From: a virus
Reading direction: 5' to 3' (one strand)
IMG/VR virus record: IMGVR_UViG_3300036770_001504
Span: 1 to 45,063 of that record
Length of the DNA: 45,063 nucleotides
Part shown: positions 3,919 to 12,997 of the stretch, in pieces
Position numbering within the stretch: the first letter of the stretch is position 1
Layout: each line of letters starts with the position of its first letter
Program-made: the position numbers and the translations under genes
The notes under the pieces: model-generated
The model's input: the letters and a program-made list of their open reading frames with translations, nothing else
What the model was told of the DNA's origin: nothing
The model's database searches: none

Positions 3919-5466
3919 ATGCTTGGATGGCTTGGAAAATGGGCGGGATCCAAAGGAATGGGAAAAATCCCAGACCTTGAAGGCTTATCTAGAGCAGATG
4001 CAAGAAACGCAATTATAAATGCTGGATTTAGTTTAGGTAATGAAACTGTAAGAGGAAATAGTCAGGGAGCAACATCTTCTAATAATGGTAAGGCTAAGGG
4101 AAGAGTTGATACAAACGAATTACTTGATTACGAATCTCAGATAGATTTTGAATACTACTCTTGGGTTGATGAACAAAATACTCAAAATACTCAAAATACT
4201 CAGAACACAGTAAACACTGTAAATACTGTTGATACCGTAAACACTGTAAATACTGTTAATACAGTAAACACCGTAAACACTGTTGACACAGTACCAACAT
4301 GTCAATATAGTTATGGAGAATGGACATCGTTAGGTACAAGAGTAGAACAGACTTGCAATGGATCCATGCTAACTGTTACAAGCGGTCAAGCAGAGGCAAG
4401 ATTTTTGGTTGATTCTGGAAATAATCTTGTTTTATTCCCACCAGAGGGATGCGGTCCTGCAGTTGAGACTAGATGGATAGGTACTCCAGAAACTACCACA
4501 ACGGAAGATTGTTATTACTGTACATGTGAGGTTGATACAGTTAATACAGTAAACACGGTTGATACCGTTGATACAGTAACCACTGTTAACACTGTTAACA
4601 CTGTTAACACTGTAGATTCTGGCCCTGGATATTGTAGATCAGAAGTTAAGCAGGATGGAATTGGTGCATGTAGTTCTGGACTTGCAACTTATACAGTTTG
4701 TTATTCTAATTCAGACTTTACTGGAAGTGTAACTTATTCAGAATGGACTGAATGCTATGAGTCAGGTGTAAATACACAAAATACAGTTAATACTGTTAAT
4801 ACAGTTAATACTGTTAATACAGTTGATACTGTTAATACAGTTGATACTGTTAATACAGTTGATACAGTAAATACTGTTGTTAATATTCAAGATACCGTTG
4901 ATACTGTTAATACGGTAAACACAGTTGACACAGTTAATACAGTAAATACTCCATGCGGACAAGAATGGTATAACTTTACTGGAAATCTTACAGAATGCTG
5001 TGGTTTGGGAGAAAGAGATCAATTAATAGATTGTAATGGAGTAGTTCTTGAAACTGTTATTAGTTGTATTGATACATGTCAAAATACACAAAATACTCAA
5101 AACACCCAAAACACTCAAAACACCCAAAATACAGTTGATACTCAAAACACCCAAAATACAGTTGATACTCAAAACACCCAAAATACAGTTGATACTCAAA
5201 ACACCCAAAACACCCAAAATACCCAAAATACAGTTGATACTCAAAACACCCAAAATACAGTTGATACTCAAAACACCCAAAACACCCAAAATACAGTTGA
5301 TACTTTTGTTAATATTCAGGATACAGTTGATACCCAAAACACACAAAATACAGTTGATACTGTAGATACTCAAAATACAGTTGATACTCAAAATACTCAA
5401 AATACTCCATGCGATTCTTGTTGTCAGATAGGCTGTGTCACCGTTGGATCGAATTGTGCCTGTTAG
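3919..5466 (+). CDS. PASTA-domain protein with NTV/NTQ/DTV tripeptide repeats and Cys-rich beads
   Basis: A 515-residue protein of unknown function. Residues 17-60 fit a PASTA domain (IPDLEGLSRADARNAIINAG), a fold that binds peptidoglycan or beta-lactam-like ligands in host kinases and also occurs in phage tail proteins. After this come four blocks of tandem tripeptides NTV, NTQ, DTV or DTQ (13, 9, 20 and 36 triplets). They are separated by three cysteine-containing globular inserts (about 127-205, 234-284 and 345-388) and closed by a Cys-rich tail (CDSCCQIGC...CAC). Two interruptions share the motif VNIQDTVDT. Thr occupies every third position, so a periodic rod or array is likely. A cell-wall-reaching fibre is my inference; I recognise no homologue for the repeat part. 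Confidence 0.7.
   Translation: MLGWLGKWAGSKGMGKIPDLEGLSRADARNAIINAGFSLGNETVRGNSQGATSSNNGKAKGRVDTNELLDYESQIDFEYYSWVDEQNTQNTQNTQNTVNTVNTVDTVNTVNTVNTVNTVNTVDTVPTCQYSYGEWTSLGTRVEQTCNGSMLTVTSGQAEARFLVDSGNNLVLFPPEGCGPAVETRWIGTPETTTTEDCYYCTCEVDTVNTVNTVDTVDTVTTVNTVNTVNTVDSGPGYCRSEVKQDGIGACSSGLATYTVCYSNSDFTGSVTYSEWTECYESGVNTQNTVNTVNTVNTVNTVDTVNTVDTVNTVDTVNTVVNIQDTVDTVNTVNTVDTVNTVNTPCGQEWYNFTGNLTECCGLGERDQLIDCNGVVLETVISCIDTCQNTQNTQNTQNTQNTQNTVDTQNTQNTVDTQNTQNTVDTQNTQNTQNTQNTVDTQNTQNTVDTQNTQNTQNTVDTFVNIQDTVDTQNTQNTVDTVDTQNTVDTQNTQNTPCDSCCQIGCVTVGSNCAC
4177..5406 (+). repeat. 9-nt tandem repeats encoding N/D-T-V/Q triplets in four blocks
   Basis: Blocks lie at 4177-4293, 4534-4614, 4771-4950 and 5083-5406. 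The unit is (A/G)AY-ACN-(GTN/CAR), with synonymous third positions varying freely. This indicates selection at protein level rather than only recent slippage, although long identical stretches in block 4 suggest recent expansion there. The last block is dominated by NTQ/DTQ and the middle blocks by NTV/DTV. Confidence 0.9.
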
Positions 5467-5493: not shown

Positions 5494-5691
5494 ATGATAA
5501 CTTTTGCAATTATTGTAGATAATGAGGTTGCTTCAACGCTTGTTATTACTGATGAAAATGAATCTTTGGACCAAACACAAAGACTTGCTGCTGCCCTTAG
5601 ATCAGACTTTACTATATTAGAAACAGAAAACCATAATGTTAAGCCTGGTTGGACCTGGGATGGAACTAATTTTGTAGAACCTTTGGAGTAG
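5494..5691 (+). CDS. Small fibre-associated protein (WxWDGTxF motif)
   Basis: A 65-residue protein: strand (TFAIIVDNEVASTLVI), helix, strand, then the terminal motif PGWTWDGTNFVEP. This layout is common in small proteins next to phage tail fibre genes, resembling fibre-assembly or fibre-tip accessory proteins; the biochemical role is unknown. It has its own promoter and a good SD (AAGGAG), and the Hint gene follows after 3 nt. Confidence 0.6.
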   Translation: MITFAIIVDNEVASTLVITDENESLDQTQRLAAALRSDFTILETENHNVKPGWTWDGTNFVEPLE

Positions 5692-5694
5692 TTT

Positions 5695-6222
5695 GTGTCT
5701 GAAGAACTATCTGCTTGGCAAAAATATAAACTTCAACAAAAACAATCTATAAGTAAAAGCATTATAACTGGATATACAAAACTAGTTTATGGAACAAAAA
5801 TATTAATGGCTGATGGTACTTATAAAAAAGTTGAAGATATCTATATTGGAGATTCTATAAAAACTTTATCTATTAAAGATGCAGATTTTCCTTTTACTTT
5901 TCAACAATTAGGAGATTTTAATTTTTCTTCTTCAAAAGTTTATAATACAGTTCATAAAAAAGAAACCTTTACTCATAATATTTATAATCAATATTTTACA
6001 AGCACGTCTACCCTGCTGACTTTAAGGGATAGTCATCTAATTAAAGTTTTTGCATCTGATATTAAGTTACATGATAAAGTTTTAAACAATGAGGCAGATT
6101 TTGTTTCTATAGAAAAAATAGTTACAAATAATTTAAACATAGATTCAGTATCTTTAGATATTTATCCAGATAAAATATTTTTTACAGAACATCTTGCTAT
6201 TTTTTGTGAGGGTATAAAATGA
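5695..6222 (+). CDS. Stand-alone degenerate Hint (intein-like) domain protein
   Basis: A 175-residue protein starting with GTG, with GGAG inside the end of the preceding gene as SD. After about 35 residues a Hint block A appears: GTKILMADGTYKKVEDIYIGD (residues about 42-62). A His in a block-B-like context (RDSHLIKVF) and a terminal IYPDKIFFTEHLAIF, resembling block F, follow. The position that holds the nucleophilic Cys/Ser in active inteins is Lys here, and the terminal HN is absent, so self-splicing is not expected. It aligns with the C-terminal domain of the protein encoded at 13027, including MADGT and IFFTE. The next gene, a 2OG oxygenase, overlaps by ATGA. AT-rich codon use matches the oxygenases more than the fibres. 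Confidence 0.65.
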   Translation: MSEELSAWQKYKLQQKQSISKSIITGYTKLVYGTKILMADGTYKKVEDIYIGDSIKTLSIKDADFPFTFQQLGDFNFSSSKVYNTVHKKETFTHNIYNQYFTSTSTLLTLRDSHLIKVFASDIKLHDKVLNNEADFVSIEKIVTNNLNIDSVSLDIYPDKIFFTEHLAIFCEGIK

Positions 6223-6821
6223 ATAAAAAAATACTAGACGACAGAATAGTAGAATATACAGGATTACTAAACAATCCAGATAAAATAATTAATGATATAT
6301 ATGATGTATGCAAAAAATATAGTTTAAAATTTGCAGAAAGTACAATTAATAATTATCAAATAGACAAAGACAAAGTGTCATCTACAGCCTTCTGGTTACA
6401 TGCTTCTCCAAAAGATATAGAAATTTCAACAACATTTCCAAATGAAAAATTTGAAATAAATTCTTATATAGATAAAGAAGTTTCTGAAGCAGTTTTTGAT
6501 TATATTGATAATTACGATGTTAAAATAAAGCAAAAAGAAAGATGGGGTATGGTTAGATATGAGAAAGATCAGTTTATTACTTGGCATCAAGATGGACCAG
6601 ATCCAAAAGATAACCCTAATGGAAGAAAACTTTCTTTTGTTTTATATTTAAATGATAATTATGAAAATGGTGGAATTCAGTTTAGAGATTATATTGGAGG
6701 AGAGGAATATAAACCAACTGCTGGGAGTTTATTAATATTCCCCTCCTACCCTCAATATTCACATAGAGTTATTCCTGTGAGTTCTGGAACAAAATATGTC
6801 AATATTTCTTTTGCTATTTAG
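6219..6821 (+). CDS. 2-oxoglutarate/Fe(II)-dependent oxygenase (prolyl 4-hydroxylase-like)
   Basis: A 200-residue single-domain protein with a complete facial triad. WHQDG gives His123 and Asp125, SHRV gives the distal His182, and Lys192 in SSGTKYVNISF sits where 2OG is bound. The core strands FVLYLNDNYENGGIQF and AGSLLIFPSYPQYSH are classic double-stranded beta-helix segments of the P4H/PiuC type. Such enzymes hydroxylate amino-acid side chains or small molecules using 2OG and O2, acting in the cytoplasm. Translational coupling to the Hint gene and position among fibre genes suggest a virion-protein substrate, which is inference. Its 3' end overlaps the convergent lysozyme gene by 4 bp. Confidence 0.85.
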   Translation: MNKKILDDRIVEYTGLLNNPDKIINDIYDVCKKYSLKFAESTINNYQIDKDKVSSTAFWLHASPKDIEISTTFPNEKFEINSYIDKEVSEAVFDYIDNYDVKIKQKERWGMVRYEKDQFITWHQDGPDPKDNPNGRKLSFVLYLNDNYENGGIQFRDYIGGEEYKPTAGSLLIFPSYPQYSHRVIPVSSGTKYVNISFAI

Positions 6822-7378
6822 TTAGGAAATTTTTCTAACCACTCCCTAGTTCTAGGGGTAATTCCTTTCCAAGAACTCCAGTTTTCTCCTCCTTGAGACA
6901 TATGAAATGCAATTTCTGCATTAACAACTGGATTAAACAAGTCTGCATTGTGATCTAGGTCATATTTTTTACGACGATCAGGACCAAGCATTCCAATCAT
7001 ATTAATTTGAAAAATACCATACGAACTGTCTCCAGTTCTGGAATTTCCATTGAATGCAAATGGCCTACCACTACTTTCTTTTTTAGCAATAGCCCATGCC
7101 TCCTTGAGACTTTGTCCCTTAAAGCCCACTAACCTAAGTAATTCTTTAAGGTCCTTATCAGATAGAGATGTAGCGTTTTCATATTTTTCTAACTGATCTT
7201 CTTTAGCCTTAGAAACGACTTTGGCCACTTCCGTGGCCTCTATTGTTTTTTCAAGCACGATATTACTATCGTTTAGTCGGTTTTCAGAAGCATTGGCAAC
7301 GTTTGACCAAACACCAAACATAGCCAATATGCTGAGTGTACCAATGATATTCCTGTTATTATTCATAAAGTTAATCAT
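6818..7378 (-). CDS. Secreted lysozyme/transglycosylase-like protein (SLT/GEWL fold)
   Basis: A 186-residue protein and the only gene on the minus strand. Residues 1-30 form a Sec signal peptide (basic Asn-rich start, hydrophobic core IIGTLSILAMFG, likely cleavage after ANA). A linker follows, then a lytic transglycosylase-like domain: catalytic Glu101 in KKESSG, SSYGIFQIN at 118-126, and the WSSWKG end motif. It would cleave peptidoglycan glycan strands outside the membrane. The start is chosen at 7378 because AAGGAGG lies 5 nt upstream; a longer reading to 7405 has no RBS. It has its own divergent promoter, so it can be expressed apart from the late genes. Endolysin, entry-related or superinfection-related roles are all possible. 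Confidence 0.8.
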   Translation of the reverse strand: MINFMNNNRNIIGTLSILAMFGVWSNVANASENRLNDSNIVLEKTIEATEVAKVVSKAKEDQLEKYENATSLSDKDLKELLRLVGFKGQSLKEAWAIAKKESSGRPFAFNGNSRTGDSSYGIFQINMIGMLGPDRRKKYDLDHNADLFNPVVNAEIAFHMSQGGENWSSWKGITPRTREWLEKFPN

Positions 7379-7400
7379 AGTTTCCTCCTTAGAAACGAAA

Positions 7401-7421
7401 AACACCTTGTTTAAGGGTGTT
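7401..7421 (-). other. 5' stem-loop in the lysozyme leader
   Basis: AACACCTT and AGGGTGTT form an 8-bp stem (one G-T pair) with a 5-nt loop. On the minus strand it is followed by a short T-rich run. Because it lies only a few nt after the predicted +1, it may stabilise the mRNA rather than terminate it. Confidence 0.45.
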
Positions 7422-11395: not shown

Positions 11396-12997
11396 ATGGC
11401 AACAAGAATGCAACAGCGCAGAGGGACTGCAGCACAATGGACAGATGCAGATCCAATTTTAGCAGCAGGAGAAATCGGATTTGAGACCGACACTGGTAAA
11501 TTTAAGATTGGTAATGGTACCTCTGAATGGTCTGCTCTCTCCTACTTTACAGACTCACAAGATTTTGATACAACAGATTTTGTTTTAAATGCACAAAAAG
11601 GAATTGCTAATGGTGTGGCAACACTAAATGGTAACGGGCATGTTCCCATTAGCCAATTAGGCGCACTTATTGATAATGCACCAGAAGCATTAAACACATT
11701 AAATGAATTGGCGACAGCAATAACTGATTTAGAAACAAGTCTTACAGCACAAATAACATCACAAATAGACACTAATATTACGGCTCATAGACAAGATACT
11801 ACAGATGTTCATGGAATTGCAGATACATCAGAACTTGCCACACAAGGATATGTTGATACTACATCAAGTAATGCGGTAAGCACACATAATGATTTAACAA
11901 CAAACGTTCATGGTATTGACGATACGACAGATCTTGCAACACAAACCTACGTAGGCACTTCAATATCTACTTCCATAACTACACATAATGAGTTAACTGA
12001 AAATGTACATGGTATAGCAAACACAGGCCTATTAGCAACTTCAGATGATGTTTCTACTTCAGTAACTGCACATAATGACACGACATCAAATGTACATGGT
12101 ATAGCAGATACAACACAACTAGAAACAACAAGTGGCGCACAAGACAAAGCAAACGCAGCACAGGCTGCAGCAGAAGCAACAGCATCGTCAGACGCTACAA
12201 CTAAAGCAAACGCAGCACAGACTGCAGCAGAAGCAACAGCAAGCACTGCTTTAGATAACCACAATTTAGATACAACAAACGTACATGGTATTGCAGATAC
12301 AGCAGACCTTGTTCTTACAAATGATGCTCGTTTGTCTGACGAAAGAACACCACTTGATTCTTCTGTAACAGATGCAAAGATCAATGGAACTCTTTCTCAG
12401 TCATCAATTACAAATCTTACAACAGATCTTGCTGCAAAGGCTCCTCTTGAGTCCCCAGCATTAACTGGAACACCAACTGCTCCAACAGCAACTGCTGGAG
12501 ATAATAGCACTCAAGTTGCTACAACAGCATATGTTGATTCAGCAGTTACAGCACTTGTTGATTCAGCACCAGGAGCACTAGACACTCTTAATGAGTTGGC
12601 TGCTGCGCTTGGAGATGACGCAAACTTCTCAACAACTGTTACAAACAGCCTTGCTTTGAAGTTAGAACAGTCAGATCTTGATAGTGCAACATATTACACA
12701 TTTAATGCTCAAACAGCAAGTTATACTCTTGCATTAACAGATTCAACAAATATGGTTACAGTAAATTCTGGTTCAGGAACAACAGTAACAGTTCCACCAA
12801 ATTCTTCAGTAGCCTTCCCAATCGGAACATATATTGATATTTTCCAATTAGGTGCGGGACAAGTAACAATCGCAGAAGGTTCTGGAGTTACAATTTATGC
12901 AACACCAGGAAAGAAACTTCGTACACAATACTCAGGTGGATCTCTTGTTAAAAGAGATACAGATACCTGGTATTTGACAGGCGATATCGTAGCATAA
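11396..12997 (+). CDS. Large modular tail fibre with VHGIADT repeats
   Basis: A 533-residue protein. Residues 1-50 (RMQQRRGTAAQWTDADPILAAGE, then KIGNGTSEWSAL) match the N-terminal fold of major tropism determinant and hyaluronidase-type fibre proteins, which attach to the tail. Residues about 130-310 contain five copies of a unit with the core NVHGIADT. LVDSAPGALDTLNELAAAL (also in the product at 9145) and a PALTGTPTAPTA shaft motif follow. The last about 95 residues are the C-terminal domain shared with the product at 3287. It probably forms an extended trimeric fibre. Confidence 0.8.
   Translation: MATRMQQRRGTAAQWTDADPILAAGEIGFETDTGKFKIGNGTSEWSALSYFTDSQDFDTTDFVLNAQKGIANGVATLNGNGHVPISQLGALIDNAPEALNTLNELATAITDLETSLTAQITSQIDTNITAHRQDTTDVHGIADTSELATQGYVDTTSSNAVSTHNDLTTNVHGIDDTTDLATQTYVGTSISTSITTHNELTENVHGIANTGLLATSDDVSTSVTAHNDTTSNVHGIADTTQLETTSGAQDKANAAQAAAEATASSDATTKANAAQTAAEATASTALDNHNLDTTNVHGIADTADLVLTNDARLSDERTPLDSSVTDAKINGTLSQSSITNLTTDLAAKAPLESPALTGTPTAPTATAGDNSTQVATTAYVDSAVTALVDSAPGALDTLNELAAALGDDANFSTTVTNSLALKLEQSDLDSATYYTFNAQTASYTLALTDSTNMVTVNSGSGTTVTVPPNSSVAFPIGTYIDIFQLGAGQVTIAEGSGVTIYATPGKKLRTQYSGGSLVKRDTDTWYLTGDIVA

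Follow-up and report, generated by a model that had tools for sequence, protein, structure and literature searches.

Tripeptide repeats upstream of a C-terminal Hint domain, as analysed here, are present in the jumbo phages Erwinia pEa_SNUABM_32 (gp111), Dickeya AD1 (gp108) and NCTB (BN7874_136). These collagen-Hint proteins are annotated as virion or tail proteins. They differ from the present family by Gly-X-Y repeats and by a further stretch between repeat and Hint domain, and no oxygenase is named among the annotated neighbours examined. The Gracilibacterium PTD protein carries a tripeptide array with Thr, for which synonymous variation of the 9-base units and a coil prediction were reported and selection at the protein level was inferred (PMC6851277, accessible part). 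The phage arrays are alike in their Thr tripeptides, synonymous variation, coil and protein-level selection. The PTD protein differs in being cellular and predicted to be extracellular, and the accessible part of that report mentions neither a Hint domain nor an oxygenase (PMC6851277).

Antifreeze glycoproteins, (Ala-Ala-Thr)n, seem to function as disordered proteins and are glycosylated on Thr (PMC6628104, accessible part). Thr occupies every third place in both cases, but the units are Ala-Ala-Thr there and N/D-T-V/Q here, and no relation is shown. In the Skp1 pathway of Dictyostelium, Gnt1 acts on the product of a prolyl 4-hydroxylase (PMC3515798, accessible part). This pathway is a model for hydroxylation followed by Gnt1, with the difference that one Pro is concerned in Skp1, whereas the NT[V/I/Q] (NTx) arrays are without Pro. 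Cyanophage 2OG-Fe(II) oxygenases belong to the same superfamily as the enzyme considered here and occur in multiple copies per genome (PMC10436341, PMC12774648, accessible parts). Among the 40 of 193 records listed, the enzyme of the window was at most 28% identical to cyanophage oxygenases at a length coverage of at least two thirds, and up to 40% identical over about half. No account of such arrays in phages was found in the literature searched, which consisted of partly accessible sources with subscription journals and preprints mostly outside.

The window takes up the start of an IMG/VR contig (45,063 of 108,556 bases). An actinobacterial host is likely, since the portal protein shares about 47% identity with its counterparts in Streptomyces phages, e.g. 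Annadreamy. The neighbourhood is fibre-like, in support of the original prediction: a collagen-like protein is encoded at 81-800, and 11396-12997 encodes an Mtd_N protein. Other loci are given by L numbers.

Anatomy and predicted structure of the array protein

The array protein (515 aa) is encoded on the plus strand at 3919..5466. A PASTA-type N-terminal domain (residues 12-81; 3952..4161) is followed by four NT[V/Q] blocks, which alternate with three Cys inserts and end in a Cys-rich tail (residues 498-515; 5410..5463). The tail stands where most orthologues have the Hint domain. Block 1 has 13 units (residues 87-125; 4177..4293), block 2 has 9 (residues 206-232; 4534..4614), block 3 has 19 (residues 285-345; 4771..4953) and block 4 has 35 (residues 389-497; 5083..5409), with one VNIQ break each in blocks 3 and 4. 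The Cys inserts cover residues 126-205 (4294..4533), 233-284 (4615..4770) and 346-388 (4954..5082). By eye, insert 2 is related to a bead of the VTP-array orthologue L189. Insert 3 is a predicted small beta bead common to the orthologues. PDB matches covered the PASTA domain, bead 344-389 and the Hint domain, the best match of the bead (Z 3.2) not being meaningful.

This layout reads as had been claimed from the sequence, including Cys-containing beads between the arrays (22 Cys in total). Instead of the roughly 78 tripeptides claimed, 76 Thr-centred tripeptides were counted across the four blocks (pattern [NDTP]T[VQTPF], runs of at least 3), composed of 32 NTV, 19 NTQ, 13 DTV, 8 DTQ, 2 NTP, 1 TTV and 1 DTF. 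Collagen-type Gly at every third residue is absent from the ORF, Thr being there instead. At E 0.1, neither Pfam nor PHROGs had a family matching the whole protein, and tblastn at E 0.01 gave no match in 50,697 phage records. For the orthologue P0002, all 48 matches in these records ran through the Hint part only.

The predicted N-terminal PASTA domain holds by fold. The AlphaFold2 model of this segment (pLDDT mostly 58-79) aligned to the PASTA domain of PknB (2kui) with Z 9.1 and 1.7 Å over 64 residues. At 18 bits, the segment stays below the Pfam PF03793 cut-off of 23.2, which is passed in orthologues only (P0002 28.6, P0003 35.0 and L189 34.6 bits). PknB PASTA domains bind peptidoglycan.

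Relatives by the part before the Hint domain are L002-L005, L046, L053, L054, L237, L248 and L250, and further L189, but with VTP arrays. Orthologue units are NTQ/ATQ in L002, L003 and L005, NTI in L046, L054 and L250, and VTP/VTPA in L189; Thr is the residue common to all, whatever the unit. The composition was counted over 734 units from 28 contigs, some near-identical, with a search pattern that itself requires Thr and V/I/Q. The first position was Asn in 574, Asp in 102, Ala in 42 and another residue in 16 units, and the third Ile in 489, Gln in 161 and Val in 84.

Selection on the arrays is at the protein level, in agreement with the original prediction. Among 333 units flanked by two matching units per side (17 array proteins), Thr was missing in 3 and kept in 330, and the third base of its codon differed from that of the previous Thr codon in 191. 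Tandem 9-base units and array lengths that vary among relatives would suit DNA-level slippage products without protein function, but this reading is largely contradicted by the same counts and is given next to no credence. In AlphaFold2 monomer models of the window protein and of L054, the arrays were coil at a pLDDT of about 25-45, with the PASTA and Hint domains of L054 well predicted. On these models the arrays look like disordered flexible spacers. Fully extended, the 228 array residues at about 3 Å each could span up to about 70 nm. The proposal that the arrays have a fold of their own and assemble into a rigid trimeric rod, as a new fibre type, found no support. Collagen-type repeats upstream of Hint domains in other phages speak for it. 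The monomer models, however, give the arrays no fold, so that a rigid rod is unsupported, and the VTP/VTPA substitution in L189 (units of 3 and 4 residues) together with the VNIQ register breaks makes a strict threefold geometry unnecessary. On present evidence a new fold is not supported, and the rod is considered very unlikely.

Beyond the last array, most relatives have a Gly-rich stretch, then Cys1 and a Hint domain with terminal His-Asn. The closest solved fold to the predicted Hint domain of L054 is a BIL domain (6y75; Z 20.8, 1.7 Å, 140 residues). C328, H413, H478 and N479 (Cys1, block-B His and terminal His-Asn) are invariant in the orthologue Hint alignment, and the 16 relatives aligned keep both the Cys1 that follows Gly and the His-Asn at the end. 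The Hint domain of the relatives is expected to be self-processing. In the window, the array gene is followed on the plus strand by a small ORF (65 aa; 5494..5691) matching phrog_14370 (unknown function, E 3.6e-5) and by a free-standing, degenerate Hint-like ORF (5695..6222), which was recognised by alignment (sub-threshold Pfam match to Hom_end_hint, 8e-5). In the latter, other residues stand in place of Cys1, block-B His and terminal His-Asn alike, and the self-processing step seems to have been lost in this phage. The start of this Hint-like ORF, SEELSAWQKYK, resembles EEQLSAWEKYK, with which a small Zn-ribbon-like gene begins downstream of the L189 array; the ORF is possibly a chimera.

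Association of arrays with 2OG-Fe(II) oxygenases

To our knowledge, phage 2OG-Fe(II) oxygenases are many and their substrates mostly unknown. The oxygenase gene of the window (6219..6821, plus strand) overlaps the Hint-like ORF by four bases. Its product matched PF13640 (8.6e-14; 52.7 bits vs. a cut-off of 27) with the HxD...H motif kept; the iron ligands H123, D125 and H182 are invariant in the alignment. An SLT-type lysozyme-like gene on the minus strand (6818..7405) marks the same locus in relatives.

A genomic link between arrays and 2OG-Fe(II) oxygenases, in line with the earlier suggestion that nearby oxygenases could hydroxylate Asn/Asp, was found in every contig counted. In 29/29 phage contigs with NT[V/I/Q] arrays in long ORFs (array ORFs under 190 aa excluded), an oxygenase homologue lies at most 750 bp downstream, and those included in the oxygenase tree form one clade. 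By the part before the Hint domain, the 29 array proteins form five groups: 11 of PASTA type, 14 of a long FN3/W..W..C-bead type, L050, L239, and L251 with L375. For this clustering, proteins were cut at the lowest Hint match, and some were consequently clustered by the N-terminus alone. The long proteins L026, L047, L048, L052 and L057 contain recurring beads, each about 60 aa long and of the pattern W..W..C....R, which by eye are thrombospondin-like; for L026, no Pfam TSP_1 match was listed at E 1.

Scans from several starting points were compared. Among the 80 loci listed in a Hint profile scan, the window itself included as one locus, 12 have NTx arrays, each with an oxygenase at most 600 bp downstream (12/12). 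Oxygenases also accompany the listed FFxPP-type (6/6), PTP-type (2/2) and collagen-type loci (1/1; weak, E 4e-6), and 2 of the 58 listed Hint loci outside these array groups have any oxygenase. A scan with the NTI DNA pattern only, blind to Hint and oxygenase, gave 37 stretches, 5 without an in-frame array, 7 in ORFs below 190 aa and 25 in longer ORFs. Two of the longer ORFs are cut at the locus end, and 22 of the other 23 have Hint and oxygenase at most 600 bp downstream; the remaining one, L252 (DTE/DTI), has neither nearby. With the NTQ pattern 11 stretches were obtained and with the NTV pattern 12, which were known family members, the DTV proteins L021-L025 and short or out-of-frame ORFs. 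Scans with an oxygenase profile, built from array-linked oxygenases of related contigs (80 loci listed each), returned as new clade members with upstream sequence at least L375, L126 and L386. Among the matches listed, one of these three has a strict NTx array (L375, 40 units). In L126 the array is degenerate and combines QNTQ with Pro; the stalk of L386 is of the GGSTNSGGSTCS type. For L371, L372 and L387, the contig begins no more than one gene before the oxygenase.

For the oxygenase tree, duplicate loci were removed and representatives below 180 aa dropped (218 to 98). The 111-row IQ-TREE was computed without L233 and L243, both truncated. Array types were labelled by pattern rules with a 1.5 kb limit, and L126 was relabelled by hand. 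One clade (support 100/100) comprises 20 oxygenases that neighbour NTx arrays, together with the L126 enzyme. On the tree, the NTx label changes 3 times, compared with a mean of 22.7 on shuffling, and 0/500 shuffles were as low. The remaining rows so labelled are, in L046, L053, L248 and L250, an additional oxygenase that comes first and, in L239, the second oxygenase. An enlarged clade counts 25 rows, L375 being the sister (support 100), and includes L386, L371, L372 and L387.

L189, L184 and L157 represent the same syntenic locus as the window, with common flanking fibre genes and the minus-strand lysozyme. L189 has VTP arrays and L184 and L157 have Pro arrays; their oxygenases belong to another clade, and the NTx clade is absent within the 12.6 kb examined. 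L239 combines VTP and NTI arrays in one protein and has one enzyme of each clade, the second of which groups with that of L189. This apparent switch of array and oxygenase at one locus is regarded as the strongest point; relatedness among phages inflates the counts. Related phages would change spacer sequence and oxygenase type together, a reading held, jointly with the explanation preferred below, at slightly better than an even chance.

Exceptions and other candidate enzymes

The rule is tight for NTx arrays only, because the Pro/Thr stalks L062 and L064 and the collagen-type stalks L078, L080, L082, L093 and L115 have no oxygenase in the flank. The collagen-type repeats of these five sit further upstream of the Hint domain. 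An NTx-clade enzyme is the only one nearby in L050, whose arrays are PT and NTI, and in L238, where they are Pro/Phe and NTI and 6.8 kb downstream was examined. L046, L053, L248 and L250 have an additional oxygenase from another clade although they lack Pro arrays. Neither Hint nor oxygenase was found with short array ORFs below 190 aa, namely L227 and L235 (both cut by the locus end), L236, L240, L242, L244 and L255 in the NTI scan and L013, L016, L017, L020 and L029 in the NTQ and NTV scans. Some short array ORFs read antisense to other proteins; L016 (177 aa, six NTQ) may be a real array ORF. In bacterial and archaeal genomes, at least 114 pattern stretches were found. The 80 loci examined gave no Hint or oxygenase profile match anywhere; 62 of them contain in-frame array ORFs, 29 of which are below 190 aa.

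Asn as the hydroxylated residue is a guess, made because Asn dominates the units and most all-Asp arrays encountered are without the enzyme. The all-Asp DTV arrays L021-L025, like L252, have neither Hint nor oxygenase nearby, which hints at Asn but is confounded with lineage. L237, counted as NTx, has (DTI)5 and PPVVVNTD repeats with both Hint and oxygenase, and this weakens Asn as target. Some of the (DTV)n arrays L022-L025 stand beside EP-rich or collagen-like stretches.

Other enzymes and substrates were considered. The Asp/Asn beta-hydroxylase family PF05118 occurred in 5/22 array records and 5/24 comparison records (3 over cut-off), some of the latter carrying Pro arrays or oxygenases themselves; being equally frequent in both, it has no special link to arrays. 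One such gene lies at 80934-81296 of the window's contig. GT61 was rejected as a general partner (1/22 records, the window's contig), and PF11397 as a constant one (3/22 and 3/17 records in overlapping sets, 0 in 14 control genomes). Collagen is unlikely as a rule to be the oxygenase substrate, since no collagen match was obtained at E 0.001 in 11/15 NTx records, including four with lengths of 96-117 kb.

PF11397 is presumably the family of the first GlcNAc-transferase (Gnt1) of the Skp1 pathway. Such genes lie near oxygenases in L050, L371, L372, L157 and L166, and about 1.1 kb downstream of the oxygenase in L375. In L126 (7604-9097), a PF11397 GlcNAc-transferase is fused to a 2OG-Fe(II) oxygenase in one ORF of 498 aa. 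The window's contig has no PF11397 gene and three GT61 genes at 83.7-87.7 kb, for which reason glycosylation of the array Thr, indirectly suggested by such genes, is a lead only. L211-L212, from the rest of this contig (about 77-101 kb), contain a carbamoyltransferase, five PF13640 genes, one PF05118 gene and the three GT61 genes.

Possible roles of the paired genes

The explanation preferred, with a confidence just above even, is that the array protein is a fibre or adhesin with disordered spacers, which are hydroxylated by the neighbouring, array-matched oxygenase. The product of 3919-5466 would be a phage fibre or decoration protein, presumably located on the virion. Its PASTA head may bind the host wall or anchor the protein, and the small Cys beads would be held apart by flexible, extended, Thr-centred spacers. 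Within the N/D-T-V/I/Q unit, the 6219-6821 enzyme would hydroxylate one residue, possibly Asn, and sugars may then be attached to the hydroxyls and to Thr. The spacer of most relatives leads through the Gly-rich stretch and Cys into a Hint domain expected to process itself. That the arrays adjoin one hydroxylase family across many related phages suggests that the phage modifies its own fibre spacers; the arrays as substrate are proposed from this linkage. The matched hydroxylase is the surprising and testable part and the new point.

A wider form of this proposal is held tentatively, at well below an even chance. Phages might run a private post-translational fibre code, in which NT[V/I/Q], Pro/Thr and Pro/Phe stalks would each have their own hydroxylase clade. 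The target of the NTx clade would be a residue other than proline, perhaps Asn, with as many as dozens of hydroxylations per chain, and the product a densely modified and possibly glycosylated tether.

Alternatively, the arrays may be plain, unmodified spacers and the oxygenase a neighbour by operon history, acting on the Cys beads, another fibre protein or a metabolite. Predicted disorder and free swapping of the unit agree with this, as do the other repeat stalks and all-Asp arrays that manage without oxygenase, and in the eight array records counted (NTx, mixed or VTP) there are 1-11 PF13640 oxygenases per record. But the linkage spans five kinds of array protein, the oxygenase clade changes with array type at one locus, and the scarcity of collagen matches in the NTx records also speaks against it; plain spacers are a possible but doubtful reading. 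Hint and oxygenase travelling as one cassette could be another source of the linkage. The Hint domain would be the key element if the array were a tether presenting a Gly-thioester, either for ligation or for release, with the oxygenase serving the Hint module, which would fit the residues kept in the 16 aligned relatives and the BIL-like fold. In the window, however, the Hint-like ORF is detached and has lost these residues, yet arrays and oxygenase persist, and L055 and L058, Hint relatives of comparable identity (39%) that lack NTx arrays, show no oxygenase over record lengths of 31.5 and 22 kb. This reading is rated as unlikely.

With hydroxylation by the matched oxygenase as the preferred explanation, a substrate for a phage 2OG-Fe(II) oxygenase can be proposed from genetics alone and in testable form. 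If true, it would represent multi-site, non-proline protein hydroxylation in viruses, would help to explain why several such oxygenases are kept per phage, and would mean that a fibre stalk and the enzyme modifying it are exchanged as a pair.

Further stalk proteins of comparable layout were observed. In L098, L103 and L121, (FFxPPx)n arrays stand ahead of a Hint domain with several oxygenases in a row downstream, as a Pro/Phe counterpart. A second stalk protein of the window phage (13027-14415) has an FN3/Ig-like start, an (FSPFG)-type array and a Hint-like domain, in which by eye Ser replaces Cys1 and the end is His-Asp. In phage NCTB, a degenerate-looking Hint-like ORF (L040:4480-4941), annotated as 'intein domain protein', lies directly behind the collagen-Hint protein and resembles the window ORF 5695-6222 in layout.
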